Of a DNA stretch of 64,000 nucleotides, positions 22,330 through 47,519 are shown one piece after another (the first letter of the stretch is position 1; each line of letters starts with the position of its first letter). The notes under the pieces are model-generated. The model saw only the letters and a list, made by a program, of their open reading frames with translations. It searched no databases and was not told the origin of the DNA. The stretch spans positions 434,001-498,000 of the forward strand of contig SKCR01007813.1 of NCBI GenBank assembly GCA_019454045.1, written 5' to 3'. Position numbers and translations under genes: made by a program. The stretch is from Zanthoxylum bungeanum (taxonomy: Eukaryota; Streptophyta; Magnoliopsida; Sapindales; Rutaceae).

Positions 22330-22346
22330 ATGGTATCAGAGCAAGG

Positions 22347-25300
22347 TTGAGCATAAAAATATTTAGGGCTTAAAATTGGGTAAATTGTATTTGAGCATGA
22401 TTTTATGAAATTAGATGATTTAGTTTGCTTAAATGTTTTTGAATTGAAGATTGATTGGATCAATTTCAAGAAATTGTGTTTGGAATATTTTTCCCCAATT
22501 TTTGGTGGCTTGGTCGAAAATATAAGAAGCCCTAATGTCTTGGAATTTTGATTTTTTGATCATTGGATGTGTTGGAAATCAATTGGGAATGATGATTTAA
22601 TGTCGAATTGGATTTAATTGGATTGAATTCGAATCGGACACAAAATCCCCTATATTGCCGAGACTTTGGAAGCATGTATTGGGTTTGATTTTTTGTTAAA
22701 TTGTGTTGGACATGATTTAATGTTAAAGAGCATAATTAATTAGTCTAATTGATGTTTTAGAAATGTTAATTGGGTAATTAATTGTGTAATACACTTTAGG
22801 TAATTTAATTGAGAAATTTGGAATTTTTGGAATTAAATTATTTGGGCTTAAATTGGATTTGGGCTTATAATGTTGTAAATGGGCTTATTGGGCTTGGTTG
22901 TACCAAGTTGGGTTTAGGCTAAATTGGTTGGATCTAATTGGGCCCAAAACCGCTTCCATAAAGCCCAAATGCGACTAATGGACCTTAATTAATTTAATTG
23001 GGCCTAAATTGATTTCTAGGCTTATGGGGTTACTCCTTGATTGGACTTTGGTTATTGGGTTTGACCTGAGTTGACCAAAAGTCCACGCCTTAAGAAATTA
23101 ATTGAAAGCCTATTGGACTTTAATTAAATTAACGTTGGACGTTAATCGGGCTTTGAGACCCGTAACGATTAAATTTGGAATTTAAGTCGTAAAAGTTCAT
23201 TAATAAAGTGTAGTATTTAATTTGGAATTAAATACCGAATTAGTATTAAATACAAATTGAATTGGATTTAATTATGTAGTTTAATTTAATTCAAGAATTC
23301 GTACTTGGAGTACTTATTCGAAAACGAGTTTGACTCGAGCAAAATCAAATCGTTGTTTGAACATTGGATGGTCATTAATTATTAGATTAATTAATTTGAT
23401 TAGATTGATTGATAACATGCTTGTGTGAATACATGGTTGCGATGCATGAATAATGTATATCGGATGGATATTAGATGGGTGGGGCAATTTTAGAAATTGT
23501 TGTAATAAATTTGGAATTTATTAATTGGACTTGCGTGTCCAGCCTTATTACCTCCTTACTCTTTGTATTCTCTTCTCACCTATTCCCCTAAATGTAAATG
23601 ATGTTTCTTTAGAAGTGTAGTGTAACGGGTAAAAGTAAATACTTGTGCTAGCGGAAGAGAGGAAATTGAGAGATTTGATCTAGGATCATTGTGTAAAGCA
23701 TCCATTTGCATATCATTATTATTTATTTATACGCGCTTTATTATGTATTCAGACTGCATGTTTAAGGGTGTATAATGATGAGACCTTAACAAAGATAATA
23801 AATTGGTTTCCAATTTGCACGCGAAAAACCCTCGCAAAATATTAAGCGTTTTTCCTTCCATTGAGTGATTCTTACTCAAGATCCAAGACTGGCATTGGTT
23901 TGTTGGCCAAAGTCAAGGCCTTTGTCCGTCGAGGATGTGTTTGAATCACGAAGGCTTTGTTCCATATTGGTGTCTTGTCCAAGTTGTGGTTTGTTGGCCA
24001 AAGTCAAGATCATTTCTTGTCCATCGACATTGATTACGAAGTTTTCCATGGTCAATGGGTCACGCTTAACTGGGATCGCTAAGTTTGTTGTGCCAAAGCC
24101 AAGGTTTAGTTGATTCAGAGGAAAAAGGTTAGGTAATATATTGGATATATTGGCATATATAAGATATATGTTTCGGACTTGGATGTCACCCTACTGGATC
24201 TAGGAATTGGATTGGATCCAATTGATCTTAGAGATCTACCTAGTTAATTATCATACAATTTGTTGGCCAAAGTCAAGATTGTGTGATATTTAACGAGATC
24301 CTAGCCCATTAGGAAACACGGTTTCCCGAGTACTCGACAGAGGGTTAGAGGCTCGCCGAAAAATAATGGGAGGCAAGAATTGAATTTGCAATATTCGTTT
24401 AATTACTTGCCATACGCGCTCAATCAAATATCATTCGTCAAATCAATTAAATGTTAGTTGGACTAATATTTAAATGTTGTTTTAATTAACAGTTGGACTG
24501 TATTCAAACAAATAAATTATAGTTGATTAAATAGTTGGACTATAATAATCATTATAATAAATAGTACCAAAATCGTTGATTAAATAGTTGGACTATTAAA
24601 ATCAAGATAAAATTGAAAGATTGACATTCAAAACATAATCCTAGGGAAAATGTATTTAAATGGTTTAATTTTTCAAATTGGGAATAAAGTTTCAGGATGG
24701 TCCTGGAAAATAATAAGTTACTTTATTTGATAAAATAACATATTATGCCTAAGCCCGGAGTTAAGCAAATAGTAGAGCATAATTTTTGGAAGATTTATGT
24801 GATGATAGCTTTAGTGCTTAATCCATTAAGCTTGTCGCAGTAGACTCCTTAATTTCTGAATCAGAACTAAGGATTAGATCCTTAAAGTATGATAAAGAAA
24901 TTGAAGGATCTTCATAGATCTTATTAGATCTTAGAAGTACTAAATTGCAATTAATAACTCTTGGAGAGTTAATGACTATTCTCAAGGAGACAAAGTCAAA
25001 CTTTGCAATAGGCAAGTAGCGCAAAGCGCACCTTACTTGTGGCATTGTTGTCTGGGACACAACTAAAACAAGAATCGTATATCCACACTTTTGAAGAGTG
25101 GGTACTCGGACTGATTTGATTCTATTCAAATAAAGTCTATGAATCTAGTTAATTGGGCAAAGTGCCTAAAACACCTTTACTTGGTAAATGTGTAAATGCC
25201 ACCGATCTGTAAGCCCTAGTTCATAGTGAAGCAAGTGGGCCCATGTCTAGTTAGGCTAGATGTGGATATGAATATTTCGTGACCTTTACGGATGTGGCAT

Positions 25301-27380
25301 CGCGTTATGGTTATGTGTTTCTTTGAAACAAAAATCGGAAACTTTTAAAGTTTTCGACACGAAATAGACAAACAGATCGGCTGAAGTATTAAACCGTCAC
25401 GGTAAGACCATAATGGAAAATAATTAGGCAATAAGTTTCTAATATACTTGAAAGAGTAAAATATTCTTTCAAAGAGGACTCCTCCCGGAACACGTCATCC
25501 TGACGGTGTGTCCGAACCAGAGTAACCGAATCTTGTTGGACATGATAAGGTTAATCATGAGTCGTTCTGAGCTACCATTTCCTTCAATGGATAAGCATAA
25601 ACAGTGCTGAACTTATTTAGAATAAGGTTCCATAAAAGCTGTTTGACAGATTTCATATTAGATATGAACAGGAAAGAAACTGGGTTTCTCATTCCTGAAA
25701 ATTTGGGAATGTTAGGCATATGTTTGGATGATACCAAACTAAAACCTAAATTGGATAAGTGCCAATTGTAGGTTGTCCTAAGGATACCAAAGTATAGTAC
25801 TTATACAACTCACAAGGGAACAATTTAATTGTTGCTCACCATGCGGTTTTCCTAAGAGGAATACCTATATGCAGTGGTAAGTGGGAGGATAGTAAAACTC
25901 GATGAAAATCAGAGTAATACTATTCATGGCACCGAATCTTAATGGAACACAAATAGTTCATCAAGGATGAAACTATACCAGTAATCTTTGAATACACAAG
26001 AACCGCGTAAGTCGGAGAGAGTCAGAAAACAACCTGGGGTATGGGTTTCTGATCTCACCTCATAAACATGTCAATCTTATTGAGGAATACCAACTGACTA
26101 CATATGAGGAAGTGATACAAGGTATCGACTCCCTATTATGGCAAAGTGCCATAAGTCCGAAATGAATTCCATGTATATCAACCAGTTTGGATACTAGTTG
26201 ATGTACCGCAAGATATTGTGCCTATTGGTACTTTATAAGTCTTCAAGGAAGACATACATGGAAGACAACATACCAACGTATAAAGCTGGGCTTTTAGTGG
26301 AAAGGTATCGTTATCAACATTGTGTTGATTACGACGAAATCTTTTACCTGTTTCCACGGTAAATCCATTTGGATAATGCTTGCAAATGCTGCCTGTTTCA
26401 TTTATGAAATATGTCAGCTGAACGGGAAAATCGCTTTCCTTAAACGGAAACCTTTTGGAGGATGTTTATAACATCCTGTCGGTTTTGTCGTACCAAAACT
26501 AGCAAACAAGGTTTGCAGGTTATTCGATCCATGTTTGGATTGAAGCAAACATTAGGTTCTTGGAATTATTGTTTTGATGTAATTATAATGGTTTATGATT
26601 TAATTCAAAACGTAAATGATTCTTGTGTATATAAGGAGGTTAGTGGGAGCGCACTGACAGTGGTTGTCCTATAAATAATGATAATATGTCATTTCTTGGA
26701 AATGACATTCCATAATAAAATCGGCGAAAGCTTGGCTTTCATAAAAACTCTCCGAGAACTCGTACATTGAAAAATGTACGTGACCTGTTGTCTCATACGC
26801 TTTAAGCATATGGATTCACAAACAGGACAATCCAAGTGATAGTCACTGGATTGAAGTTAAGAACATCCATTAGTATCTTAGAGAACTAAGGATGCTGTCT
26901 TATACTATGGAGATGGAGAACTTGAAGTGACTGGGATCACTACTGCAGGTTTCCTAAACCGATAAAAATGACTATAAGTCGCAAACGGTACTATAAAGTT
27001 TGAATAACGGAACAGTGAGCTGGAAATCTTCCAAGCAAGATACTGTTACCGAATAAACAACAAATGCGGGTTATTGCTGCAGCTGAGGCGGCAATAGAAG
27101 CCTTCTGGGTCGATAATAAATCTAATTAGATTAGATATAGTTCTGTTAGCAGCTGAGCTAGGCTACAACACATGCTAAAAAATTAATGGTCTCATCAACG
27201 ATCCAGATACATACTTCGATATTCATCTGATCCGTTCGGATCATACATCGTGGCGATGTGATGATCGAATAAATCGCATCAGACGATAATCATACCAATC
27301 CGCCGACGAAAGCCTTTCTCAGCAATTTGAGCCAACCGTACATAGTTCGGGTGTAAGACACTCGAGTGACTTGCTATAGG
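22347..27380 (+). pseudogene. Copia copy 1 internal region (gag-pol remnants)
   Basis: Bases 22350-23860 are non-coding leader. Bases 23865-24110 give a gag-like open frame with a repeated TTGTTGGCCAAAGTCAAG motif. Integrase is readable near 25232-25320 (the YEYFVTFTDVASRYGYVFL stretch), and RT remnants at 26100-26680 (VDVPQDIVPIGT and SMFGLKQTLGSWNY). RNase H traces lie at 26900-27130. Stops occur throughout. The stretch between gag and integrase is about 0.7 kb shorter than in copy 2, consistent with loss of the zinc knuckle and protease. Confidence 0.8.
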
Positions 27381-27393
27381 CCAAGTGGGAGAT

Positions 27394-29288
27394 TGTTGGA
27401 AAATTATGACCCATAGAGTCACTATTTGTACAGATCATGGTGTTGTTGTTTAAATTAACTATGTGACAAATGAGATTGCTCTCTTATCATTTATGATTAG
27501 ATCACCAAGATATATAAATGATAGGAGGTCCCTATGATTTGTTCCTAGATTGAGAATGGTATGAGACAGTATCAATCCACGAAGGATAAATCATTAAATA
27601 TCCCTAGTCAGAGTATTATCGAGATTGGACATCGATAATGCGTAAAAGACTAGTATTACACTTGTGCGCGTTGTGAGGGCATAACGACATAGTTCTCATA
27701 TATTTGGGTATATGATACTCATGCAAGTGTAATAGGAGGTTGTGTTTTACCGATGGTACGGGAAACAGCTTCGCTCTGGATAGACCCCCTCAGAATTACA
27801 TTGGTAGTATGACTATGTGTCTATGGAAGTCCGAAATCAGGGTAGGTGTATTTGGTCTTAACCTGAGACTTGCACCGCTAATACTTGCGACAATCAATGT
27901 ACTTTGGTTTTGGTCGTCCAGGGCTTTAACAGGTTCTGTGTAGCCTCTTCTGGGTATATTGAGAATCGTAGTGTGTTGGGTGTGATGTCAAAACGGAAGT
28001 ATCACTCCAGTCATATGGAGATGATGGTCACGTAGGATACGGAACTGGTTCTCTTATATGATGCAGCTATCGGGATATTATGACAAGGTCATGTATATCC
28101 GATTATAGAGACTAGTTACCAGAGATCTGACATGTTCTTCGTACGGGGCAGACACAATTCCAGCCCCAGGCCTAGCACGTGGCATCCGATACTGGATCGA
28201 GATACGCAATACTACATATACTACGCCTGATATAGATCGCATATTCCTGTAAGGATTTTCTGGAGAATTGGGTAGGCATGGTGTTTTGCTAGAAGCCAAC
28301 CTTGTCTTGTAAATCGGTATAAACGTAGTACTAGGTACTTACGTGTTCGGATAGTCCGACGACCGAATTTACTGCCAACATATCCGGGGATCTCATGGGT
28401 CGCTTCCCGAAGATTCACCGATGACGTATGACTCGCACTTTTATTAATCTGGGATTAATCAGATGAGAGAGAAAATTAATTTGGGATTAATTGAGGAGAT
28501 ATTTTATCTGGGATAAAATATCAATTAAAGAGAGATAACGATTAATTTGGAATTAATCGATAAAATAATATATTAGATATATTATACGAAATTGGATTTC
28601 GACGCGGAATTAAAATTAGATTTTAATTCGGGCGAACGAATTAATTTAGAATTAATTCGTTAGCGACGTGAATAGTGATTTCGCAAGGCATAATCATTTA
28701 ATTACGTCGCAACGGAAAATTCGTTAATTTGGAATTAGCAAACCCGAGCCCGGGATTGTTTGCGAGCGCATTCGCATTTCGATTTCGAGTGCGGCACGCA
28801 AGTCAAATCAAGCGTCAAATCGCTAGTCACATCAAGCGTCAAATCATGTCACTTTGAGTGATGTGACAATTTGATTGATTGAGTGATGTGACTTGATGGG
28901 AGTTGATGTTGGTAGTTGTAAGCTTTAATTAGTTTGACTTTTTAAAAGCCAAAAATTGTGTATATGATTTTTTGAAAATTAATTACCAATTTAACAACAC
29001 ATTTATCATCTCTCTCTGTCTCCATTCTCTTCCTCTCTCTCTCGGAAAAACTGCCATTTTCTCTCTTCTGGTTTTGCTCACTGCCGTGAGCTAGGGGAAG
29101 CAAAAATGTGATGATTTTGTGGCAAAATCATCAAGAGCTAGCACTCCTCACAAGGGGAGAAAATAAAGTTTTGTTGATCACCGCATCGTCTCAACCGATC
29201 ATTGTGAGTATTCTGTGACTTCTTTGATTGTATTCACATGAATGTTTTATGCTTGATATGATCTTGGGATGCTTAGAAAATTCCAACA
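27394..29288 (+). repeat. 3' LTR of copia copy 1 (1895 bp)
   Basis: Partner of 20639-22329. It keeps the 330-bp segment missing there (about 27885-28215) and has lost about 127 bp near 29150. Otherwise the two differ by scattered substitutions. Confidence 0.95.
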
Positions 29289-29456
29289 GGAATGGGATGT
29301 GTGTTGATGCAAGGAGGAAAAGTTATTGCCTATGCTTCTAGGCATCTAAAACCTTATGAACAAAATTATCCCACCCACGACTTAGAGATGGCAGTAATAA
29401 TTTTCACCTTGAAGATATGTCGACATTACTTGTATGGTGAAAAGTTTGAGATTTTT
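29289..29456 (+). pseudogene. Ty3 RNase H, middle fragment between two insertions
   Basis: Reads as the conserved RNase H stretch [20 protein letters not shown], then [15 protein letters not shown], in frame with the upstream fragment across the copia insertion. Belongs to the host element, not to either insert. Confidence 0.9.
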
Positions 29457-31235
29457 TTACCGGCGTAAACACACACGTATAACGCAAGCGCACGTATCGT
29501 TCAAGTAGTATAAAAATATCGATCCCACGAGGACTTAATTCCTACTGTTGTTATTAATTGTTGATACTATTTATTTACAGATATCTAATTATAAGGAGAA
29601 GGGAATTGATTGCTTGATTGATTTGATTTTGTAAATTTGCTAAATAAGTAAATAAATAAAAAGACAAAAGAAAATACTAAGGAAAATAAAAAGACTCAAA
29701 GATATAGGGTTGTGAATCTTTCTAATATCAATTAAAAGATGAAGTAATTAAATCATAGTTGGGTAAATTATTGAATTATTAATCTGGAACACTAAATTAT
29801 GTAAAAGCCTCTTTCGAATGATCATTTACAAATACCTAGTATAATCCAATTGAACCATATGTCTATGTCAATTAAATTACCTAGATTCATTAAGATTGAG
29901 CTCCAATTATGACTACCCCCGCCCAACAGGTATATTCCTATCCTGTAAGGAAATCTATTAAAAGGGTTATCTATCCTTAAGGAAGATCGTGGGTTGTTGA
30001 GTCTGTGGTCTTTAACTTAAAATCTCTATGTCTAGTTCATTTTAAGTTTATCTAATCAATTTTATTAATGGCCAATTAATAAAAAGGCATTAAGATTATG
30101 ACTCAACAAATAATTCTTTAATTACCAGAACTATAATCTAACCTTTTTTAAAACCGGTTATATTAGATTTTATCACAACCCTAGATATTTAATTTAGTTA
30201 CAATACATAGCTAAAACTAATAAAAACTTAAAAGATATAAAATGAAATTGCAGAAAGTAATTAAAATAAATAAATGAAATGCTAAGGTAAAAGGAAATAA
30301 CTTCTACTATATACTATTTAGATATCTCCCATAAAATAATATATAATCTTGTGATATTTTAAACCAACCGTCCAGAATGGCGGTATCCTGATTAAGTCAA
30401 ATTCAAATATACCAGCCATAAGGCGGAACAGAAATATAAACTTAAACCAACCGTCTAGTGTGGCGGTATCCTTTATTAATTCAGATTTTAAATAGTTTAT
30501 ATATTATATTTTAAGGGAGATTAATCTAAATAGTAAAAGTAAAAGAATTACCTTATTACCTCAGCATGGTGAGGTTACCCCCTCATGGATGGATAGAATT
30601 ACTACTACAAAGCGTAAATAAAACTGAATAAAAGAGACTAAAGAAAAGAACTCTCAATTTATTTATAAGGATTTCAGAGGAAGAGGTACATTTGAAACTA
30701 AAAATTCGAAATCTATTTATAGGCAAAAAAATCTAATTTTTTATTATTATTTTTCTGATTTTTATTTTTTTATTATTTTTTTCTGATTTTTATTTTTTTA
30801 TTATTATTTTTTTTGGATCGCTGAATTTTCAACACGTGGCATGGTGTGCTAAAAAAGACGGCTCGTTGAATTTTTGACATGTGGCATGGTGGTGCAATTA
30901 CCAAAATACCCTCGGTGTCGGGACGCCCAAAATTACCAAAATACCCTTTTCCCCAAATTTCACAGTTTTGCTCCAAATCACCTCCAGAATGTTTTGAAAC
31001 TTTATTTTGGTGTCGGGATGTCCAAAATACCCTTTGTGTCGGGACGCCCAAAATTACCAAAATACCATTTTTGCCAAATTTCACAATTTTGCTCCAAATC
31101 ACCTCCAGAATGTCCTGAAACTTTATTTATCTACAAAATAACACAAAACACATCAAAATATTCACAAAACTCAAGAAACTATACAAAATATTAAGTTAAA
31201 TGAGTGGGAAATAGTGATACATTTATCACTCATCA
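29457..31235 (-). repeat. 3' LTR of the LOG-carrying element
   Basis: In element orientation it begins TGATGAGTGATAAATG and ends GCCGGTAA (the partner ends GCCGGTCA). U3 contains a tandem duplication of about 120 bp (30899-31010 and 31020-31130) built on GGTGTCGGGAYGYCCAAAAT. Two copies of an AAACCAACCGTC..TGGCGGTATCC unit sit at 30360-30392 and 30443-30474. A TATA box (CCTATAAATAG) is at 30713-30723. Confidence 0.95.
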
Positions 31236-31250
31236 CACCCCCAAACCTAA
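31236..31250 (-). other. Polypurine tract of the LOG-carrying element
   Basis: On the minus strand, GGTTTGGGGGTG directly precedes the TGATGAG start of the 3' LTR, the usual Athila/Tat arrangement. A second copy of the motif lies at about 32758-32772. Confidence 0.85.
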
Positions 31251-32858
31251 CATTTTGTTAGTCCTCGAGCAAAATAAAATAACATAATAAGATTTAACTA
31301 AGCCACTTTCGTAGGGATCACGATTGCATTTAACATATGCAACAAGCCTTTAAACCCCTAGGTGTCCCTAGTGGACGAGTTGTAGTCTCGTGAGGGTTTA
31401 CAGCAATGATACCCACAAACATTTTTATAAAAGTAAAAAGGAAGTGAAACTAATGCACACAAAAGCAAAAAGACAAGAGAAAAGAGAATAAAGAAGTTAG
31501 TGACTAATTAGGTGAAACTTCTACTCCAAGTTTACTAGTTGTTTTGTTTCATTCTAAATTACTGAATAAGTAAATTCTCCGATTATTTTTACAATTTCTT
31601 CATATACACAGCTAACAAAGTATTATTTAACTCATTTTTGCCCACAACAGTCATAAGTGCAGTTGATAATAGAGTAATATTTTTGTCCTAAAGTTTTATC
31701 AGAATTCACATCTTTTTGTAGTAATGGAATAAATTTTCTGATTTTTCTGATTTTTTCTTTGATTTTTTCTCTATTTTTTATTTATATACAATATCTTCCA
31801 TCTATGTAGCGAGCTTTAGGTCGGTGACTCCCAAACCAGTTGGCTTTAGGGCATCAGGTGTTAAGACACCCCTAAGGACTTAATTACTCAGACTTCAGAT
31901 ATATATATATATATATATATATATATCATCTTTTTTATCCATGTAACGAGCTTTGGGCCAATGACTCCCAAACCAGTTGGTTTTAGGGCACTAGGTATTA
32001 AAATACCCTTACAGACTTAATAACTCGGATCTCATACACTTTTTTTTATTATTCCATTACTTTTTTTGAGATGCTTCTCTAATTAAACTATAGCACTGAA
32101 TATTACAACCTTTTCAATTTTATCCTATGTCCGTATGTTACCATGTATGTTGATAATATCTGACAACTAAGTATATGAAAATTCATTTTAGTCAGTTTTA
32201 AGGAGAATTTACAAATTAAATAATTCAAAAGGAAATAAACAAAAATTAACTTGTTTCGAAAAAAATGGGTTTTGAAATACGTATCAGGAGTGAGAATTCC
32301 TTACACAGCTATTTCTTACCAATTTCACATTTTTTGTCAACATAAAAACAAAACCATAAAGAAATAATTTTTACTGGTCATGGTGTGTGACTAACTGTCG
32401 AATGGACTTCCCGTTGTAGATTCCCTAGAGGGAGGGTGGAGCGAGGCTCACTTAAGTACCCTAGCCTCTTAGGCTCTTATCGCTTGGTGTCAGGAATAAA
32501 CAACGAGTCATCCAAACTAGTCTATCACAACAAGCTACTGGTGAATGATTATCTAGGTGCCTCACAGCTTTTCCTTATAGAAAGGTAGTGAGTGAAGGAA
32601 GACACCAAACCATCACCTAGCTTTAAATATGCCTTTGATAAAAAAATGCAAAATATTTTTGTAATTTTTGAAAATTTTTTAATTTTTTTGTATTTTTCAA
32701 AAAATTTTGGACTAAAAATAAAAACACAAACTATAAACAAAATACTATTAACTATTCCTCACCCCCAAACCTAAATGAGACATTGTCCCCAATGTCTTTA
32801 AACAGTAGAAGAAGAGTTTAGAAGATAGTACCTGGTTAGCTGAATTACTACAAGCAAA
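31251..32858 (-). other. Non-coding 3' region of the LOG-carrying element
   Basis: No ORF of note. It holds an (AT)n microsatellite at 31901-31927 between two imperfect copies of a roughly 95-bp unit (31799-31890 and 31936-32033, sharing GACTCCCAAACCAGTTGG), a 240-bp block shared with the Ogre-like element (32378-32620), and an internal PPT-like motif with GACATTGGGGACAATGTC at 32758-32800. Confidence 0.75.
32378..32620 (-). repeat. Conserved retroelement module, copy 1
   Basis: On the minus strand this matches 47641-47880 on the plus strand over about 240 bp. Landmarks in order: TTTGGTGTCTTCCTTCACTC, ACTACCTTTCTATA, GGAAAAGCTGTGA, GATAATCATT, GCGATAAGAGCCTAAGAGGC, CACCCTCCCTCT, GGGAATCT. 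It has no conserved open frame, so an RNA or DNA role is more likely than a protein. Confidence 0.85.
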
Positions 32859-33511
32859 TTAAAGGTTAAGGTCCAGATTTATTCGACGCTTTTTACCACG
32901 ATCGTCCTCAGACCAATTTATCTTTGAAATGACAGGGTTAACTTGTGGTTCATGGGCTAAGAGTTGGTCTATTAGATCCGGAGCAGTTCTGGCAGTATAG
33001 AGGAGTTCTTTCATAGGTTTTGACACGAACCCATTTCTCCGGGCATCATCAAAAAACACACAAAGAAAATCATAAAATCCATCAACGTTAAACAGCCCAA
33101 TCGGTTTCTGGTGTATGTTCAAGTTTGCCCAAGATAACACTATAAAAATTTCCTCCAGTGTGCCTAAGCCACCTGGCAAAGCAATAAAAGCATCAGAACG
33201 GTTAATCATTTCCACTAGTCGTTCAGACATACCTGGCACGATCAGTTCCTCTCCGTTTGATGGTTCAATAAGATTCGCTTCTGCCAAGGGTTTTGGGATG
33301 ATTCCCAAAACATGACTGCCTCCTTCTTGTACGGCCTTTGAAACGATCCCATAAGTCCAAGATTGCCTCCGCCATATATTAAGTGCATATTCCTTGCAGC
33401 TAAGACTCGACCCAATTCCTGTGCTGCTTCTATGTATTGTGGTTTAGTACCAACACTACTACCGTAAAACACACAGATGTTTTCAACTCGTCTTCTTGAA
33501 GTGGCTTCCAT
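32859..33511 (-). pseudogene. LOG-like cytokinin riboside 5'-monophosphate phosphoribohydrolase, intronless, one frameshift
   Basis: LOG enzymes release active cytokinin bases from their riboside monophosphates. From ATG 33511, the first frame reads RVENICVFYGSSVG and LIYGGGNLGLMG. A 1-base loss near 33346-33350 shifts the frame, and the second frame runs IPKPLAE, then SDAFIALPGGLGTLEEIF (the PGGxGTxxE motif) and KPIGLFNVDGFYD to a stop at 32859. Total span is about 217 codons, full length for plant LOGs, which normally have several introns; there are none here. The usual MHxRKxxM segment is MSERLVEM, keeping Arg but not His or Lys. The C-terminus ends INLDLNL, EAR-like (LxLxL). It is in the sense orientation of the element, downstream of gag, with a possible TATA box at 33570-33576. 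Confidence 0.9.
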
Positions 33512-34032
33512 TTTTTATGTATTTCTTTCTTAACTCTGGATGCCTTCAAAAGTGCAATGACGGGCTGAATTTATAGTACCTGAAAAAGGGTGAGTAATAA
33601 TAGCACTAGTATCTTCCAAATGAAGCTTGTTAGCTAAAGAAAAATGAATCGTGAAAGGTCAAAAAGTATGGATCTTGTCTTTGAAAATAAAAGAAAATAA
33701 CAAAAGAAAAGAAAATCAAAGCAATTATTAAGGCAACGGAATTGTGTACGCAATACGCCATTCGCTTAGTATAAATTCATTAGGATGTGTCTCAAGAATC
33801 CATTCCTTACTCATCCATCGCTAATGAATTATCTCTTATCTTTGCCAAACATCATTCCTTCTGTCTTAAAATGCTCTGTTTGTGCTTTTCCCTACAAAAC
33901 AACACACAAAATTAAAAATTCTACAACATGTATACATAAAATAAAAATAGAAATTATAACAAATTGCATGGGTTGCCTCCCTGCTATCGCTAAATTTTTC
34001 GTCTTCAGCCAGACGTGACTGAAATCCATCTA
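33512..34032 (-). other. Spacer between gag-like ORF and LOG-like gene
   Basis: Contains, on the minus strand, the block GGGAGGCAACCCATGC (33965-33980), a recurrent Athila/Tat landmark after gag. A CTATAAA box (33570-33576) lies 60 bp before the LOG ATG. No other coding similarity. Confidence 0.6.
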
Positions 34033-35283
34033 TCAAGGCGGTTTCAGCGTCGTTTTGGATGTCCTATTAAAGACAATCCCATGTGCGTTGCTTTTGAAGG
34101 GTCTCTTCCAACGGTAAAGTGGCAAAAATAGTTTTGTCTCATTCAGTGCTTGTGCCACCTTTTTAATCTTTGTCGCTCCAGTGATTCCTGAAAAGAAAGA
34201 AAGAAAATCAGGAGGTCTTGTATGGTGCTTGACTTGGAATGGAATTTCCATTCTGTCAAGTTTCTGAGTAATATCTCTAAATTGTACTCCCCAAAACAGT
34301 GATGTTTCGCCTGAATTCATTGTATCTTTAATTTTGTCTGACAATTGCTCCTCCATTTGCTCTGCTTCTTGCTCCACCTTTTCTTCACAAATGAATTTTA
34401 GGATCTCTGTATTAAGCTCTTCATCTGTCATCTGTGAAATACATTTTTCAAAATTGTCAACCTGAGGATGAAAAGAAATGTCAGATTTTAGGTCTTCTTC
34501 CTCTGATATGACTGGAATGGATGGTTTAGGAAGATCTTCTTCAAACATCGTTGCAAAGCATGCTCCAAGATCTTCATTCTGTGGATGGAAAGTTTCATCC
34601 TTCCTTGTTGGTGCAGTTTGTACAAAAAGCTCAGTTTCTTCATCCTCGTCAGAGTCAGAATAATAAAAATCAAATTGAGACTTTGTTGGTGCAGGTTTCT
34701 GAACTGATACCTCTGATTCTTGATACTGCTCAGCCTCGTCCTCTGTTATGATGTCATGATGAATCTCAGGATATTCGAAGGCTTCTTCAGTATTATTTGA
34801 ATTTGCTCCATGAGATATGTGATTCAGGTTGTCTGTTAGTTGTCTAACTTGATCTGTCATCCTCTGTATAGATGCCGCTTGACTCTGAATTTGTACATTA
34901 AATTGAGATTCCCGTTCCTCGAACAAATTTTTGAGCATGTGAATCAACTGATCTTCCTCTGATGGATCTGGTTCTTGATGAAGATCGTAGATGAATGGTG
35001 GATAAGATGGAAAATGTGATGATTCTTCGTACCTTGAATGATTCCAATAATTCTGCCACTCTGAAAGGTATATACATTGATCGCTCGGGTGGTTACCATC
35101 ACATATTACACATCTCCCCATTTCATTCTGATGAGCAAATGTAGTGTTGCTTGGTTCTGGCTTCCAGTGATAGTTGTTGGGCTGGACAACAGGCCTCAGA
35201 AAACTAGACTGTTGCTCCCGGATTTGGGATGTATCTTTTTCTAGTAAAGCTCGTAATGTTTCAAAATGTTCCATTTTTTTCAA
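34033..35283 (-). CDS. Gag-like protein of the non-autonomous element (416 aa)
   Basis: An intact frame starting 108 bp after the PBS. Residues 58-70 are CVICDGNHPSDQC, a CX2CX3HX4C zinc knuckle of the Athila/Tat type. Before it there are only about 57 residues, so the capsid domain expected upstream is missing. After it, residues 100-330 are very acidic (many Asp/Glu runs, a DSDEDEETE stretch) with a possible coiled coil around 115-155 (QSQAASIQRMTDQVRQLTDN). The C-terminus is basic. I infer an RNA-binding Gag remnant, or an accessory protein derived from it. Confidence 0.75.
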   Translation of the reverse strand: MKKMEHFETLRALLEKDTSQIREQQSSFLRPVVQPNNYHWKPEPSNTTFAHQNEMGRCVICDGNHPSDQCIYLSEWQNYWNHSRYEESSHFPSYPPFIYDLHQEPDPSEEDQLIHMLKNLFEERESQFNVQIQSQAASIQRMTDQVRQLTDNLNHISHGANSNNTEEAFEYPEIHHDIITEDEAEQYQESEVSVQKPAPTKSQFDFYYSDSDEDEETELFVQTAPTRKDETFHPQNEDLGACFATMFEEDLPKPSIPVISEEEDLKSDISFHPQVDNFEKCISQMTDEELNTEILKFICEEKVEQEAEQMEEQLSDKIKDTMNSGETSLFWGVQFRDITQKLDRMEIPFQVKHHTRPPDFLSFFSGITGATKIKKVAQALNETKLFLPLYRWKRPFKSNAHGIVFNRTSKTTLKPP

Positions 35284-35390
35284 TCACCTGAAAATAAAAG
35301 AAAGAAATAAAAAGTACAGATAATAAAAAAAAGAAAATTAGATACAAGTAAATTAGATAGCTTCAAAATTAATAACTCAAGAAAAATAAA

Positions 35391-35408
35391 TCCCCGGCAA
35401 CGGCGCCA
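35391..35408 (-). other. Primer binding site, tRNA-Asp type
   Basis: The minus strand reads TGGCGCCGTTGCCGGGGA, six bases from the end of the 5' LTR. It fits the tRNA-Asp 3' end used by Athila-like elements and fixes the element's orientation. Confidence 0.9.
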
Positions 35409-35414
35409 AAAACT

Positions 35415-37191
35415 TGACCGGCGTAAACACACACGTATAACGCAAGCGCACGTATCGTTCAAGTAGTATAAAAATATCGATCCCACGAGGACTTAATTCC
35501 TACTATTGTTATTAATTGTTGATACTATTTATTTACAGATATCTAATTATAAGGAGAAGGGAATTGATTGCTTGATTGATTTGATTTTGTAAATTTGCTA
35601 AATAAGTAAATAAATAAAAAGACAAAAGAAAATACTAAGGAAAATAAAAAGACTCAAAGATATAGGGTTGTGAATCTTTCTAATATCAATTAAAAGATGA
35701 AGTAATTAAATCATAGTTGGGTAAATTATTGAATTATTAATCTGGAACACTAAATTATGTAAAAGCCTCTTTCGAATGATCATTTACAAATACCTAGTAT
35801 AATCCAATTGAACCATATGTCTATGTCAATTAAATTACCTAGATTCATTAAGATTGAGCTCCAATTATGACTACCCCCGCCCAACAGGTATATTCCTATC
35901 CTGTAAGGAAATCTATTAAAAGGGTTATCTATCCTTAAGGAAGATCGTGGGTTGTTGAGTCTGTGGTCTTTAACTTAAAATCTCTATGTCTAGTTCATTT
36001 TAAGTTTATCTAATCAATTTTATTAATGGCCAATTAATAAAAAGGCATTAAGATTATGACTCAACAAATAATTCTTTAATTACCAGAACTATAATCTAAC
36101 CTTTTTTAAAACCGGTTATATTAGATTTTATCACAACCCTAGATATTTAATTTAGTTACAATACATAGCTAAAACTAATAAAAACTTAAAAGATATAAAA
36201 TGAAATTGCAGAAAGTAATTAAAATAAATAAATGAAATGCTAAGGTAAAAGGAAATAACTTCTACTATATACTATTTAGATATCTCCCATAAAATAATAT
36301 ATAATCTTGTGATATTTTAAACCAACCGTCCAGAATGGCGGTATCCTGATTAAGTCAAATTCAAATATACCAGCCATAAGGCGGAACAGAAATATAAACT
36401 TAAACCAACCGTCTAGTGTGGCGGTATCCTTTATTAATTCAGATTTTAAATAGTTTATATATTATATTTTAAGGGAGATTAATCTAAATAGTAAAAGTAA
36501 AAGAATTACCTTATTACCTCAGCATGGTGAGGTTACCCCCTCATGGATGGATAGAATTACTACTACAAAGCGTAAATAAAACTGAATAAAAGAGACTAAA
36601 GAAAAGAACTCTCAATTTATTTATAAGGATTTCAGAGGAAGAGGTACATTTGAAACTAAAAATTCGAAATCTATTTATAGGCAAAAAAATCTAATTTTTT
36701 ATTATTATTTTTCTGATTTTTATTTTTTTATTATTTTTCTGATTTTTATTTTTTTATTATTATTTTTTTTGGATCGCTGAATTTTCAACACGTGGCATGG
36801 TGTGCTAAAAAAGACGGCTCGTTGAATTTTTGACATGTGGCATGGTGGTGCAATTACCAAAATACCCTCGGTGTCGGGACGCCCAAAATTACCAAAATAC
36901 CCTTTTTCCCAAATTTCACAGTTTTGCTCCAAATCACCTCCAGAATGTTCTGAAACTTTATTTTGGTGTCGGGATGTCCAAAATACCCTTTGTGTCGGGA
37001 CGCCCAAAATTACCAAAATATCTTTTTTGCCAAATTTCACAGTTTTGCTCCAAATCACCTCCAGAATGTCCTGAAACTTTATTTATCTACAAAATAACAC
37101 AAAACACATCAAAATATTCACAAAACTCAAGAAACTATACAAAATATTAAGTTAAATGAGTGGGAAATAGTGATACATTTATCACTCATCA
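35415..37191 (-). repeat. 5' LTR of the LOG-carrying element
   Basis: Nearly identical to 29457-31235. One visible difference is a 2-bp shorter T-rich run near 36735. It begins TGATGAGTGA and ends GCCGGTCA in element orientation. Confidence 0.95.
36671..36681 (-). promoter_or_regulatory. LTR promoter TATA box
   Basis: CCTATAAATAG on the minus strand, about 510 bp into the 5' LTR. It is a good plant TATA consensus in the expected place for the U3/R boundary and would drive the gag-like ORF and, by read-through, the LOG-like gene. Confidence 0.6.
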
Positions 37192-37642
37192 TTTTTACTG
37201 ACCACAAATGTCTCAAGTATATTTTAAGTCAAAAAGATCTTAATTCGAGGCAGAAGTGATGGATTGAGTTATTGAAAGATTATGATTGTTCAATTCAATA
37301 TCATCCTGATAAGGCTAATATGGTAACTGATGCCTTAAGTAGGAAATCTATGGAGAGTTTAGCTCATCTGCCAACTGAAAGGTGGCAACCAGCTAGACAA
37401 GTGCAGAAATGTACTTCAGATGGAGAAAGCTTTCAAATAATAAATCAAGGAACATTATTGGCACAAATTCATGTCCGATCTACACTGGTGGATGAGATTA
37501 GAACTGCTCAGGAACTAGACGTCCAAATCCAACAGATTAGAGATAAACTAAAGCAAGGTATGGATGAGGAGTATTATGTAGATAGTGAAAACCTCCTGAG
37601 AAAGAAAGGCAAAATTGTTGTTCCTTCAATTTCTGAGTTGAG
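37192..37642 (+). pseudogene. Ty3 RNase H end and start of integrase, 3' truncated
   Basis: Continues the host element: TDHKCLKYILSQKDLNSRQK (with one stop after it), then [19 protein letters not shown], the RNase H C-terminus, then an integrase N-terminal region to VVPSISEL. There it stops abruptly, because a TGTAACATC LTR terminus begins at 37643. Confidence 0.9.
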
Positions 37643-40600
37643 TGTAACATCTGGTAAACCTGACGACTTGTACGATACCAGAGACTGATGATTATTATAA
37701 TTCAGAGATATAATACTTGATATAAATCATGTTTAAGCAAGTACGTGCTCATAAAATTGCATTTGGGACATTCAGAGGATTCCTTGAAATTTTGACGCGG
37801 AACTTAGTTTATGTTCCACCTCGAACAATATTTAGTAATTGGGCCATAACTTTTTCATACGATCTCCAATTTTTATGAATTTTATATCATCGGAAAGCTG
37901 AGACTGAGAGCTACAACTTAAACATTGGATATGTTTCCAAATTTGAAATAGAAATAAGTCAAAAATTGTAAATTCCGTGACTGTTTCAGTAATTTCGGGA
38001 TTAGTCTAGAAAAAGGATGAGGTGGAGCAATTATGACCACTCATTCCATCATAAAATCAGCCCATCTTTATCTATAAAAAGCATACTATTCACTCATCTT
38101 CTTTGAAGAAAAAAACGTGGGTTGTGACTTCTTAAGGAGCAAAACTTTTCTTCATTTTCATGGAAGACAATTGATGAAGGGGATGAGTTCTTGAGATCAT
38201 TTTGGTTAAGTTTCTAAATCCATTTCCTTCCTCTAATTTTCAGTTTTGGGCAAGGAAAAACCAAAGTCCCATTTCGAATATAGCATACCCTAGCCTTGGA
38301 AATTGTTAGAATTGGTATTAATAAGTTGTTGGCATGTGTTTTGATAAGTGTCATGATGATATTAGCATTGAATGAGGTTTATTTATGTGTGAATATGATG
38401 AGGATATTATGCTTGGTGATTGAATGATTCTAGAAAATGGGTTGTGTATAGGTGGTGATATTAAATGAGTTTTGAGGTTGGAAAATTACCTATGTGTTAG
38501 TCCTAGATTAAAAGTGTGAGGATTGCATGAGTAAAGAATGAGTTGGCTCGGGTTGATGAGGTGTAGTGGATAAAATGATGGTATTGTAAAAAAAAATAGT
38601 GATGTTGCCCAATGTGCACACGATGCGTTTGATGAAATGTCAAGCCTAGATAAGAGTAAGAAATTAATCAATTTATGTATATGATAATTTACTAAAGAAT
38701 CTAATAGTAATAGCCGAAGTAAACAAAGTTAGAAGGGTAACGAAATTCGTAACTTAGGCAGTGAGTGTACTTGCTGTGAAATCTAGACAGTCTGTGTTCT
38801 ATCGACTATAACTTGAATTTTAGATATTTGATTGATGAACCATAAATTTATAAGTAAACTAAATACATTAAGGTACAACATATCAAAAAATCAGAATTTT
38901 CCAATGAAATATGAAATTGTGGCTAATTTTCAAATATGGCCAATCTGAAATGAAGAACTGGTTCTCTTCGGGTGAATAATGTGAAGAGATTCATCCATAT
39001 ATTGCGTTTGGTAAATTGTAATTGAAATCCGTAAAATTATGGGTAAACTAGATACATATGGGAGTAACATATCAAATATTTAAAATTTTTGGACTTAAGA
39101 CAAGATCGAACCGAATTTTTGAAGTCGGCGACCTGCTGCCCCAGTGCCCAGTTTTTTAGTTGGACAGTCCTTGAATTTCGGTCTATAACTTGAGTTTCTG
39201 AATTCGGAATTGAGATCCGTAAAAACCAATATAAACTTGATACATTAAGGACCATTCTATTAAAATTTCAACTCCAGGTTCATTTCCAATTAATTGTAAC
39301 GAATTTTAAAAGTTTGGTGTCATGTAGTGAATTTTGTAACGATTAACATAAAATAAGTTTCTGCTACCACACTTGCATAACTCCAAACCTAAGTCCGTAA
39401 AATTCATAGATGTCATAGATATCTCCAATATTCTTCAAGATTATGTGTCCATGAATTGTATACTCTTTTATGCCATATGAAGATGTTTCGAGTTATGGAA
39501 ACTAACGATTATATGGACCTTAGATTGATGATACTAGAAGGTCGCCCATACCGTGAATCACTCTTGATTTGCCATAGCACTGTGAGTGGACACTCTTATT
39601 TAAAGTTGACTTTTATTATGTATTTGACACATCAAACTTACTTTTACGCTTGTAGGGCGTTAGTTGATTTTTTATTGCAGTTATTTCTTGAAAGACCATG
39701 TATTAAGATATGTCTGAGAAATTTATGTTTTCAAAGTATGATTTTATGTTTTTTTTTTCGAGGCATAGGGGAAAAACCCACTTAAGTATGTAACTTGATA
39801 CAGACATGGAATTGACAGATGACATGTACACATGTAGAGGACTGGGGGGACGGTGATACATAACGTCCTCAGATCCTAGTTCAGGACTAGGGATGACAGA
39901 TGCCCCTAGATCCTAGATTTAGAGCTTGGAGGGTAGCATAGATTCGTACCCCCAGTTCTGGTTCAGTGGCTTGGGGGACGGTAATATGTAACGCCCCAAG
40001 ACCACTAGTTTCAGGGACATGAGTGGCATGCTTTGGGGGACGGCGATACGTAATGCCCCAAAGTCATGGATTTGCACTCCTGGCTCTAGTTATGCGTATG
40101 GGGGGACGACGATACGTAACGCCCCCATACATCAGATTTTCAGAGATAGAGATCGGTTTTCAGAAATAGTTTTCAGAGATCAATTTTTAGAAATAGTTTT
40201 CAGAAACAGATTTTTCAAAAATGAGTTTTTACTACAAATATTTCGGATACAGATTTTCAGAACAAGATTTTCAAAAATAGACTTTAGAAAGGTTTTCCAG
40301 GAAGAAAGTTGTTTTCAAGTAATAGAAGAAATTTCAGAAAAGATGATTTAAGATGAAATTGGCTTTAGAACCGTGGATTTTCAAAAGCACTTTTAATACT
40401 ACTTTTAAAACTGTCCACTCACTTAGATCGTTCAAACGATCTAACCCTCCACTCCCAGTATTTTATTTTGCAGGTTCTTGGAGGACGAGCTCGGGAGGAT
40501 GGATACTGATGGTAGTCACTAGAGAGTTGGTCCACTAGGTCAAGTCAGGGAAAAAGTCTAGTTCGGTCAGAGTCAGAGAATGTCAAGTAACATATATGTT

Positions 40601-40893: not shown

Positions 40894-43042
40894 TCTAGGG
40901 AGTCAGTGACGGCAGTGGGTAGAGTGTTGGGGTCTTGTATATATAGTATGTCCGAGATTCTTGTATGTGGGGCATTACCTCTCCAATATCTGATCCTCGA
41001 GTACGTCCTCAAGCCCTATAGACAGGTTAGTAAGCTTTCCCAGACTATTTGAATAGTATTCTTTATGGAAACAATTATACTCTATATCCAAATTGAAAAT
41101 TCTCTTGTAGTTATCATGGCTTATCACCAAAAGTATAGACAAGCTATGAGATAAGGGAGTGGAAAGAGAAATCTATAATAAAAGTAAAAGAGAACACACA
41201 GATGTTTAAAGTAACCAGATAGTAGTAAGAATCAGAGATACAGAGTTAAAAAATAAGAGATAACACCAGAATTTGTAGTAAAGGAGAATATAACGACCCT
41301 AAGCCCAGACAGAATCTACCTCATACCTACCTTACATGAGTAATAGACTATGTGAGGACACAAAGAATCAGAATAAAACGCTGGTACCTATTGAGATATA
41401 AATTCATGCCCCACTCTATATTAGCCTAGATAAAGATATCCGTAAAAAAAATTGATGAAAAGTTAACCAAATGGAGAAAAGAAAACACTAAATGATAGAC
41501 CACCTAGGAAAGAACTAAGAAAGATTTAAGAGATAGAATAGAAAGAACCTGACCCAAGTGTAGACACCTGTATTTTTGCATGAAGCCCGATGATGAGCCT
41601 CGTTAGGAGGCACTACCCGATACGTTGTGGAAGTCGCGGTAAACGGACGTCAGAAGGGGAAATTCAAAATAAGTACGTCGTCAGATTTAATTCACATGAT
41701 CACTGCATGTGCGTTCATGCTGCGTTCAGAAACACGTTCGAACGGCGAACAGATTGCGGGCGTTCGTGCAGCGTCCTGGAACGCGTTCGAACGATCGTCT
41801 GTGTTTCTGTTTTAAAATTAAAGCCCCAAGCCCATAACACCAAGCCCACAAGCCCAATCCAAAAATAATTAAAACATTTAAAACACATGCCACAAATTAA
41901 ATCAAATCCAATTAAAATCAAAATAATATCCTTCCTAATTAAATCAAATCCAATCAAATCAAATCAAAATAATACCCTTCCTAATTTAAATAAATCACCT
42001 ACCAAATTAAAGAAATTCCCCACCAAAAATAGAAATATCATTTCCTTAATTAAACACACACATAATTACTTGATTTGTTTCCTTTTCAAAACCCATGCAC
42101 AAGGAAACCCTAACATGCACCACTATAAAAATAACACAAAACCCTAAACTCTCTTGGCTTCTCTCTCCCTCTGCTCGCTCCTCACTCCCATTTATCAGCC
42201 TCACACTCACGGTCTGCTCCTCCATGCTTTTTCCATCCCGCATCCACCGAATTCACAAACCCCTAATAAACCTTTAACCTCTCGGCCTCTTCATCCCTCT
42301 TTCACAAAAACCTAACAGGCATCAACTCACAAAGAATAAACAAAACCCTAGACGAATAGCTTCTCCCTCGCCTCACTCCTATCTCTCTCTCTGATTCGGC
42401 AACCACCAACACTTCTCACACGTCCCTCGACCATTCACAAAAAACAAATCAGCGCACTGACCAAGCAATTAGACACGCACACAGTAGCCACAGCTCACCG
42501 ACTGACCACGCACACCCCTTCCACAAACAAGCAGGCCACACGGCTTCACAGCCAGACCACACACGTCACCCCCACCAAACACACAAAGCAAAAACAACAC
42601 AGCCCTAAGCAGCAAACAACTCGTCCACCAACGAAGACAAATAAGCCATCCAGCTATGAAACACAACCCAAATACCCCCCAAATAACCGTGAAACACAAC
42701 CAGAACAGTCCCCGGAACACCCAAAAATAGTCCCAAAATACATCTGAAACACTGAACCAAAACAACCCTTAAAACAGTCCAAATATCACCCCAAAATAGT
42801 GAAAAAATACGACGAGCAAGACTGCAATAAAAAACAGCAAAAACAGTGAAGAAAATAGAGAAAATGGCAGTGAAAACAGCGAAGGAAAATCTTGACCCAG
42901 AAAAATAACGGAGTATTAACCCTTCCGGTGACGACGTAACGCACTCCCGGGAAGCGATTTAAAAGGTAAGACCTGAGGGCACCCTTTGTCATATTTTATT
43001 TTGTTATCCCGGACACGGCATGCTTGGTTGGACGTGGAATAC

Positions 43043-45588
43043 TGTTGGGGTTTTGGGCGATGGGGCGCAGCGAAATGCACGGTTCGGGCGAAATCGTATT
43101 TTAAAACTTTTTCAAAATACCGAATAAATTATTCAATATATAATATGAATAATTTATTCATATTTCACCTAAACCTATTTATTTAATATCAAATACTAAC
43201 ATAAACTAGTTGAAAACTCGCGAAACTTTTACGAAAATTGTTTTTCCGCAAAATGGCCTAAAATGCGTTTTTGACCGAACCGACTACCCGACACTTATGG
43301 AAACTGCCCAGGTCAGATCCAATAGTGTCGGGGAAGTTCATGGGCTTCACAAACAGTGACAGAATCACTTTTTTCACAGCCGTCACCCGGTTGGCTCAAA
43401 ATCCACCCGGTAATGCCGTTTTTGGCCGTTTTCGCTTATTTCAACTCCGAAATACTTTCCGGAAATTGTGCCAACTCCCAAAACACATCCATTACATTCG
43501 TATGACATCAAAATCATCACATAATTTCCAGTTTTAACAGATCTGATCTGCAGACCAAAAATTCTCATTTTTCATGCTTTAAAATCCAATTTTCAAGATT
43601 AATCAAATTAATCATAACACCAACTAGAATCACCACACATGAAGTACTCAAGAACAATTCTAGGTTCCATAAGAGTGGTCACAACACTTTAGAATGGCAA
43701 CAATGTTGTCCTACAACAATTGATTAAATTGGCCTAAAATTACACTAATTTCATCCAAAATAACACTTCACACATGCTTAATCCTCCAATTCCAACTACC
43801 AAACACAAAAGCCCCAAATTAGAACAAGTAAAGAAACCCTAGATATGTTCTAGGAACACAAGAATAATTAAAATAATTTTCTAAGCTCAAGGATGAATTA
43901 GATTACCTTTAATCTCCATGAATCCTTAAGCCTTTTCTTGTTTTCCTTCACTTTTTCTTGTTGTTTCATCAAACAAAATTTGGGTCCCTTTCTTTGGTAA
44001 GAGTCGGCAATGAGAGAAGCTTGGAGAATAAAGAAAACAACTTTTCTTTCTTAATTTTTTTAACCAAAAAACTTGAGAGAGAGAGGTGTATTAAATATAT
44101 ATGGTCAACAGCACCTTTTTGAAAAAAAAAACAATTTCCTTTTATAAATTCGAAAAGTGGCGTGAGTGTATGCAATATTTGGTCAACTTATTATTCAAAA
44201 TAATAATTAAATAAATCTTTGGTAAATAAGGTTTCCTAATATGGTCAAATAATAACCATATATATTACTAGTAATATATATTTGATAATAATAAACTTTA
44301 CACATGTAAAGTTAATAATAATTATAATTCATTACTTTAATGAATTTAATAATAACTTACTTTACATGTGTCAACATACAATATGTTAATGATGTGTATC
44401 TAATCTAATTATGCATCTAATATAAATACACATTAATTATTATCAGACAAAATTTCCTTAATGCATGTGTCATCATTTAACCAATTAAACGATCCGAATT
44501 AACTCACTTAATCTGGTGAAGTATTATGAATAATCTGTATTATTCATATCGAGTTGCCCAAGTGCTCAACGAGTACACTTCATATTGTGGGACTCTCTAA
44601 GTTTAGGTTTATCCATCACGAAATCTAATTTCGTGTCCATAATCCACCCACTCGTGGATTATGACGACCACCGCTAATCTCACTAAACTATACAAGCCGA
44701 GGTAATAGCATACGTATAATCCCTCCGTCACAGGCCATCCGTATTATACCTGGGATATAAATGAAAACGTCAAACACGTTCGGTATAATACAGTCGACTT
44801 TCAATTTACGATCTCGAAATAACACTCGGAACTAATTTCTGACATTATACCACGACCATGGATTTACTAGATCGTAAACACGTGAGGATGCCTATGCCCT
44901 GTACACAGGACTGACGGATCTTATTTTGATACGCACTGAATATCATGAGCATCAGTCCACACCCAACGAACAGGCGGAGGTCTGATCATGGATAGATCGT
45001 TGACGTGACTGCCATCAAAGTGTGGAGGATAACTCATATATCCCACTGTGGTATCTCAAGTCAGAGGACCACTATGCTCGCTCAACTCAAGAAGGTTCCT
45101 ATTGACGTTGGTGTACCATCTATTAGGAAACCTTCATTGAGTCGTTCAGTGTCTTATCAAATAAACACCTACATGTCTATATGAGTCTCCCGAGACTCAT
45201 GGTTGACTGGGATAAACCATCAGACCAAGTCACGATATACGACATGTACTGGTCTCAGCGGATTTTACTAACCGATCCGTGTTAGTAAATCTTGATCAGG
45301 AACTTTATTTAAGGATATACAACTAATAGTGCGCTTCCCAATGTTAATTACAAACTATGTTGTAACTGCGCACTATACTGTAAATCCTATGGTCTTTGTC
45401 TAATATACACGTATCACTGAACCAGATTCAGTTTCGATCTAATCGTAATCAGATTAGATCGAATAAGTGTATAAAAGAGAAGGGTGTTACCAGTAGAATT
45501 AGTAATATTATGGAAAATTGAACCGCTCGTATTAATGAATCGGACATAAATACGATCCGGATTGGCACTCGGAGCACCAACCCTAACA
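43043..45588 (-). mobile_element. Solo LTR inserted in the Ogre-like 5' LTR
   Basis: 2546 bp, with termini TGTTGGGGTT and AACCCTAACA, and the 5-bp duplication AATAC (43038-43042 and 45589-45593). The empty site is visible in the partner LTR at about 52317-52323. No PBS, PPT or coding domain was found inside. Orientation minus is a guess from terminus similarity to other LTRs (TGTTAGGGTTGGTGCTCC). Confidence 0.85.
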
Positions 45589-46007
45589 AATACGTCCTAC
45601 CGGGCATGCGAAGCCCTATATTAAAAATGGCCAAACCATTGGTCACATCTCTTCACTATTCCACATTTATTTTCAGTCATTTATTTTCCTTTAATATTTC
45701 GCACTTAGCTTGCTATTTATCGTTTCTGTTATTTATTGTTGTTTCATCACATACATTATCATATTTCATGCATACATTGAGTTGATGATTGCGTGCTATC
45801 TCTTGCGGTATATCGGATGGAAACCCAGACGTAAATTTCGTAGCCAAATTCGAATGGGCGGTAGTGCGGTTCGTACTTGGGATACAACTCCACGTACCGC
45901 TTGAGAGACTTTCAAGCACGTGTTTCATTTTGTGATTTAAATCTATGTTTATCGTCCCGCTATTTATCTTTTTATGCATTTTGTTTATTCATGTATTGTT
46001 ACTTGAT

Positions 46008-46680
46008 GCGCATGGGCTAACTACGTTGGTTTAAAGGCCCTCCATTACAGGGAAATGCCAAAAGGCTACCTTTACCACAATATTTTGCCGCGTCTTTTAT
46101 TATGTCATTTACCCTTTGCATATCATTGCTTTATTTATGCATGCATTGCATTCTAGTGCGCATGGGCTAACTAGGGTGGATTAAAGGTCCTCCATCGAGG
46201 GAAATGCCTAAAGGCTACCTTTACCACGATGTTTTGCCGCGCCGGACGAGGTACACTCGATTGAATATGAAATGTATTCAATAGGGCATACAAGGTCCCA
46301 TATTATTTATTTGTTTATTCATGCATTGATAATTTAATGCGCATGGGCTAACTAGGGTGGATTAAAGGTCCTCTATTCGAGGGAAATGCCTAAAGGCTAC
46401 CTTTACCACGATGTTTTGCCACGCCGGATGAGGTACACTCGATTGAATGTGAAATGTGTTCAATCGGGCATACAATGTCCCATATTATTTATTTGTTTAT
46501 TCATGTATTGATAATTTAATGCGCATGGGCTAACTGGGGTGGATTAAAGGTCCTCTATTCGAGGGAAATGCCTAAAGGCTACCTTTACCACGATGCTTTA
46601 CCACGCCGGACGAAGTGCACTCGATTGAATATGAAATGTGTTCAATCGGGCATACGAGGTCCTATATTATGTATTTGTTT
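46008..46680 (+). repeat. Tandem repeat in the Ogre-like LTR (four units)
   Basis: Each unit starts GCGCATGGGCTAACT and continues with GGATTAAAGGTCC, GAGGGAAATGCC, AAAGGCTACCTTTACCA and, in three units, TCGATTGAATRTGAAATG. Starts are at about 46008, 46156, 46338 and 46519. The 3' LTR has the same four units at 62645-63330. Confidence 0.85.
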
Positions 46681-47501: not shown

Positions 47502-47519
47502 TGGCGACTCCGTTGGGGA
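47502..47519 (+). other. Primer binding site, tRNA-Arg type
   Basis: TGGCGACTCCGTTGGGGA, three bases after the LTR end, is close to the PBS described for Ogre elements. Confidence 0.85.

Follow-up and report, generated by a model that had tools for sequence, protein, structure and literature searches.

We present an analysis of a LOG-family sequence found in a stretch of 64,000 nucleotides of the Zanthoxylum bungeanum genome (assembly GCA_019454045.1, contig SKCR01007813.1, positions 434,001 to 498,000), referred to below as the window. The sequence occupies positions 32859-33511 on the minus strand and is located between the two long terminal repeats (LTRs) of a retrotransposon, in the sense of the open reading frame ORF1 and between ORF1 and the polypurine tract (PPT). 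We consider it probable that a large Athila-like Ty3/gypsy family carries a conserved extra gene, i.e. an additional open reading frame (aORF), and that this segment has decayed from a copy of it. The window element probably represents a derived class that has lost gag, pol and a gene resembling those of carlavirus-type nucleic-acid-binding proteins (NABP), carries ORF1 instead, and has kept LOG together with the 3' part. The LOG copies in related elements, the gene order of one pol-bearing relative, the linkage of both genes in Acer and purifying selection taken together indicate that the capture is old and inherited.

LOG segment of the window

The LOG identity proposed in an earlier note on this DNA was confirmed. 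The C-terminal part of the segment matches PF03641 (4e-35, 121.3 bits, cut-off 27) and TIGR00730 (4.9e-32, 111.1 bits, cut-off 96.35), and in the tree the segment groups with plant LOGs, nested deep within a multi-species clade. The level of the NF058542 equivalog (cytokinin phosphoribohydrolase) was not reached, with 77.7 bits vs 300 as scored on the broken C-terminal part only, and the window LOG is not filed as such an equivalog. The gene, described in the note as full-length, is broken near residue 55: by tblastn, residues 1 to about 59 are read in one frame (33350..33511, minus strand, end at about residue 55-59) and residues from about 55 to 217 in another (32859..33350, minus strand, with PGGLGTLEE, the tail GKKRRINLDLNL and the stop included). 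As LOG is split over two frames, the window copy cannot yield the whole protein by ordinary translation and probably makes no working LOG. The statement that this copy is intronless is true of the LOG stretch at the DNA level; the other half of the comparison, that LOG genes of the host plant have introns, is general background.

LOG copies across the genome

The host genome was searched with three queries. With the window LOG frame, 150 of 83,215 candidates were scored; since this query holds out-of-frame residues, the copies obtained are biased to breaks at the same place. In all 30 loci read from this search (window included), LOG was surrounded by sequence of the same element family, the downstream part being inverted in L015. 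The second search employed an unbroken query, P0001, and 122 of the 150 scored copies were without a stop. Among 30 fetched loci, 17 align over all 217 residues with no stop or gap, and LOG is flanked by sequence of the element family in every one of them (L064 is short). The lettuce LOG7 query gave 146/150 scored copies without a stop in the matched stretch; copies at 49-53% identity filled the 150 scored and host LOG genes were not reached, and the three copies fetched all belong to the same element family. The P0001 and lettuce LOG7 searches together reveal at least 254 distinct places with a stop-free LOG frame (14 common to both), element membership being assumed for the places that were not fetched. 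Identical loci (L010/L011, L013/L014, L024/L025) and the division of the assembly into 51,709 contigs mean that some of the counts may be duplicates; on the other side, no more than 150 copies were scored per search.

Programmed frameshifting at the LOG break was considered, since other loci of the window-query search shift frame in the same zone. It was rejected: the query selected such copies, the breaks vary between copies, and the unbroken query retrieved mostly stop-free ones. A second, more diverged LOG-bearing sequence was noticed near a family member (L039:90-1050), with about 73% DNA identity to that of the window and the tail GKKRKVNMDLNL; LOG subfamilies thus seem to coexist in the Zanthoxylum bungeanum genome. 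Three IMG/VR scans found no relative, and in a further one LOG matches of 30-38% identity were seen on 4 contigs.

Selection on LOG and NABP

Both LOG and the NABP-like gene are under purifying selection. In the P0001 set, the ratio of nonsynonymous to synonymous differences (pN/pS) of LOG is 0.209 (27 non-redundant of 30 copies; other frames 0.70 and 1.59), and that of NABP is 0.350 (26/28 copies; other frames 0.89 and 0.87), with 1.06, 1.00 and 0.65 for the non-coding control (26/27 copies). In the frame-broken set, the values are 0.203 for the LOG C-terminal part (27 copies), 0.280 for the N-terminal part and 0.357 for NABP (14 copies). The LOG C-terminal part of the frame-broken copies has pN/pS of 0.14 on internal and 0.21 on terminal branches, and its stops number 0 on internal and 9 on terminal branches.

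Element order and the NABP-like neighbour

Of the 30 loci of the P0001 search, 29 have, upstream of LOG, an NABP match that is partial or split in some. The thirtieth locus, L067, has ORF1 in place of NABP, and ORF1 occurs in L072 and L074 too; as LOG is unbroken in L067 and L074, the pol-less class has also kept LOG. Seven flanks of 10 kb were inspected, and the Pfam scan covered ORFs of three of them. In L036, matches to gag, reverse transcriptase (RT), RNase H and integrase, distributed over several ORFs, are followed by NABP and then LOG. The L037 flank has a gag match and an L040 ORF only a sub-threshold match; for the six flanks other than L036, the ORF lists suggest inner deletions. Two gene models of Acer yangbiense fuse NABP to LOG (P0124 and P0200, with 53.6% and 42.4% identity, respectively).

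The NABP-like ORF is about 180 aa long and is located upstream of LOG in L012, L016, L023, L030 and other NABP-bearing loci; tblastn detected no trace of it in the window element. It contains the NLS-like KKRRAK, and its Pfam matches cover a basic stretch with a C-x2-C-x4-C-x3-C finger after it. L016 is just above the Pfam cut-offs for Viral_NABP (23.4 vs 23) and Carla_C4 (21.6 vs 20.9). Both models are matched at E up to 1 by 10 of the 11 scanned members, with best values of 1.3e-6 and 6.9e-7. The remaining member, Acer P0124, is a gene model without the finger. The scan of viral contigs for NABP, one of the three IMG/VR scans mentioned above, found no relative. Cysteine-rich proteins of flexiviruses are reported to suppress silencing and to determine pathogenicity, and one of them to induce hyperplasia (PMC12172455); p12 of chrysanthemum virus B is reported to activate transcription and to suppress silencing (PMC7588395).

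An acceptor-like site, TTTT[GAT]CAG, precedes NABP in 13/13 aligned loci, and TTTCAG precedes LOG in 24 of 27, with L016, L020 and L027 differing; messages for both genes would be spliced at these sites.

LOG proteins of the element clade

For comparison, 214 proteins were sorted by best blastp match to reference sets of our choice into 65 canonical LOGs and 133 element-clade LOGs of at least 160 aa, with 16 shorter ones dropped. In the tree, the element LOGs are a sister clade to the sampled plant LOGs, and the same clade includes Populus proteins, one of them named LOGL10, as well as multi-member clusters of Xanthoceras and Reevesia. In its fold and in most of the active-site residues, the element LOG matches cytokinin riboside-monophosphate hydrolases: the overall fold is as in LOG enzymes, the arginine which we take to be catalytic is kept in 119/133 proteins, and a PGGxGTxxE-type motif is present in 123/133. 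The clade has in addition a tail of its own. A basic cluster resembling a nuclear localization signal (NLS) occurs in 118/133 element-clade and 0/65 canonical proteins, and LxLxL within the last 14 residues, resembling an EAR motif, in 91/133 and 0/65, respectively. All 30 loci of the P0001 search end with the basic cluster plus an [IN][IL]LDLN-type sequence. The tail is a low-confidence region of the modelled fold and is probably disordered.

Structure and age of the window element

The element was delimited by LTR alignment and its ends at 29457..37191, minus strand (7735 bp). Its 5' LTR (TGATGAG...CGGTCA, 1777 bp) is at 35415..37191 and its 3' LTR (TGATGAG...CGGTAA, 1779 bp) at 29457..31235, and an AAAAA target-site duplication adjoins them at 37192..37196 on the 5' side and 29452..29456 on the 3' side, all on the minus strand. 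In their alignment of 1777 bases, the LTRs show 7 substitutions and a single 2-bp gap. Their Kimura two-parameter distance (K2P) is 0.0040, which corresponds to 0.15 million years (My) at the substitution rate of 1.3e-8 or 0.28 My at 7e-9. This LTR pair and the duplication agree with the earlier placement of LOG inside a young element, and the segment is not an ordinary host LOG locus.

In the direction of transcription (minus strand), the 5' LTR is followed by the primer binding site (PBS) TGGCGCCGTTGCCGGGGA at 35391..35408, which is identical in L036, and by ORF1 (34033..35283, 416 aa stop to stop). The sequence GCAGGGAGGCAACCCATGC at 33966..33984 is found in the NABP-bearing class too, just upstream of NABP and with a base change in some copies. 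Acceptor-like TTTTTCAG at 33580..33587 precedes the LOG start, an internal PPT-like GGTTTGGGGGTGAGG region lies at 32760..32799, and the PPT GGTTTGGGGGTG, adjoining the 3' LTR, at 31236..31249. The LTRs, the PBS and the PPT agree with the marks of the Athila lineage. The 10-mer CAGGTACTAT occurs on the minus strand both just upstream (33573-33582) and just downstream (32825-32834) of LOG, which may be a footprint of the capture or chance.

The internal region holds ORF1 and the two LOG frames, and any other ORF in it is at most 85 aa long, counted from stop to stop (these short ones were not Pfam-scanned); pol is taken as absent, as the earlier note had it. Both gag and pol were not found in the window element and were matched in L036, and for this reason we call the window copy a pol-less derivative. 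We doubt that ORF1 is gag, as it was labelled earlier: no Pfam family scores above its cut-off, only 6 homologs were found, and the tblastn matches of ORF1 to the post-capsid region of gag of related elements are weak (best E 4e-4).

On the plus strand, the left flank (29290..29456) resembles, by eye, the RNase H of a gypsy element serving as host for the insertion, and the right flank (37192..37688) continues the pol-like stretch; no Pfam match was obtained for 37260-37688. Joined across the empty site, the flanks give one continuous frame, again RNase H-like by eye, with one stop further right, so to the eye this reads like an insertion into another gypsy-like element. Other repeats of the window include a tandem array at 50149-50765 (33-nt period, 13 overlapping in-register copies, 66-90% identity to the reference copy), a 182-bp unit in three tandem copies at 46195-46740 (96% and 74% like the first), and more long direct repeats at 20637-28556 and 41562-52598 (6.7-9.3 kb apart, 88-96%), which are probably other LTR elements.

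Weighing of the explanations

Several points weigh against a conserved aORF of an Athila-like family. The non-coding control of the frame-broken set, 0.60-0.89, is also below 1, and the picking of LOG copies by protein similarity lowers pN/pS of LOG; NABP, being outside the query, is less affected. LxLxL is absent in 42/133 element-clade proteins, of which some are truncated and others have I/R variants or a shorter Sapindales tail. The R-K pair present in 63/65 canonical LOGs is found in 20/133 of the element clade, mostly with R-L/I/M instead, and Gln replaces the arginine in 10/133, so that these proteins may act differently on cytokinin nucleotides. The Athila-like placement follows from the PBS, the PPT and the order of the domains rather than from an RT tree, and the whole reading is drawn from DNA and protein sequence.

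The earlier note held that the young element itself had captured a host LOG via RNA in a recent and notable transduplication, which the sense orientation, the lack of introns and the young LTRs would support. We find this hardly credible, as LOG is flanked by the same family in 30/30 loci of the window-frame search and 30/30 of the P0001 search, is located beyond the pol matches in L036 and beside NABP in Acer, has a stop-free frame at the many places counted above, is under purifying selection, and the window copy lies deep in a multi-species clade. LOG and NABP might also be passengers of no use to the element, intact-looking since the copies are young; many copies are indeed broken, the pol-less class drops NABP, and the control of 0.60-0.89 would suit this view. 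It is nevertheless very unlikely in the light of in-frame ratios of 0.21 and 0.35 vs 1.06, 1.00 and 0.65 for the other control, of the internal-branch ratio of 0.14 with stops confined to terminal branches, and of the catalytic motif and tail conserved across species.

More weight is given to two explanations that concern the proteins. The LOG fold may have been repurposed for a nuclear, nucleotide-binding protein, not a cytokinin enzyme, that recruits corepressors and affects silencing or the transcription of the host. The basic patch and LxLxL of the element clade, both missing from the canonical LOGs, the lost R-K pair, the occasional Gln and the probably disordered tail are consistent with it, but R and the PGGxGTxxE-type motif are kept in most proteins and the overall fold is like that of LOG enzymes, and we hold this reading doubtful. 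The NABP match may be chance or a generic zinc-finger likeness, not flexivirus homology: L016 scores barely above the cut-offs, the copies are related, hence 10 of 11 are not ten independent tests, and viral contigs contributed no relative. The agreement of two separate Pfam models, with best values of 6.9e-7 and 1.3e-6, and the basic stretch followed by the finger make this rather unlikely.

Proposed mechanism

The pol-bearing relative L036 has, in this order, gag, RT/RNase H, integrase, the NABP-like ORF and LOG. Relatives that share the PBS of the pol-less class and resemble it in their LTR ends would presumably mobilise this class in trans. LOG, and in relatives also NABP, would be made from LTR-driven and probably spliced messages. 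LOG may then raise active cytokinin, or work in the nucleus via its tail, favouring dividing cells, and NABP may damp silencing; cytokinin activation by any LOG copy is what we infer from sequence. A bolder proposal, to which we attach a low probability, is a two-gene virus-like programme downstream of pol, in which a flexivirus-type nuclear finger protein and a nuclear LOG with an EAR-like tail would push host cells to divide and to silence poorly, and LOG alone would be spread by the pol-less derivatives. The finger protein would dampen silencing or alter transcription, and LOG would change cytokinin output or recruit corepressors.

Relation to known systems

Steinbauerova et al. (2011, Genetica), known to us through citation only, are said to have reported LOG/YgdH in Ty3/gypsy elements earlier. 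Our literature searches brought up no description of the NABP-LOG pair or of the tail in retroelements, although that report might contain one. The pair and the conserved tail thus look new; LOG in such elements is already known. The YgdH (LOG) domain has been described in consensus Ty3/gypsy elements of Citrus sinensis and Citrus clementina, to which a less strict filter adds Populus trichocarpa (PMC9289625). These elements carry the same LOG-family domain inside plant Ty3/gypsy, and in our tree the clade of the element LOGs includes Populus proteins. The section on them concerns other genomes and names no NABP partner, tail motif or pol-less carriers (PMC9289625). Canonical plant LOGs (LOG7-like; 2a33 At2g37210, 1ydh At5g11950) share with the element clade the fold, PGGxGTxxE and mostly the catalytic Arg; the clade differs from them by mostly R-L/I/M in place of R-K, the basic and LxLxL tail in most members and its multi-copy state. 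The NABP-like ORF has in common with the carlavirus-type NABP (chrysanthemum virus B p12) the Viral_NABP and Carla_C4 matches, the NLS-like KKRRAK and the Cys finger; unlike it, it sits in a retrotransposon, has about 180 aa and is not known to have an activity. A similar case is the 2-ODD (RNA demethylase) aORF of orchid Ty3/gypsy elements, likewise a host-type enzyme kept by a large gypsy family; there the enzyme is different, RT is sister to Ogre within Tat, and activity was demonstrated (PMC9289625).

What appeared as an odd one-off LOG in an LTR element becomes a system open to testing, in which a large family of retrotransposons keeps a hormone-enzyme-like gene under purifying selection, in many members together with a virus-like NABP gene. 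Element LOGs may also contaminate the annotation of the plant LOG gene family, as with Populus LOGL10 and the Xanthoceras and Reevesia clusters. If the proteins work like their kin, a genomic parasite would manipulate plant growth hormone and silencing, as pathogens do.
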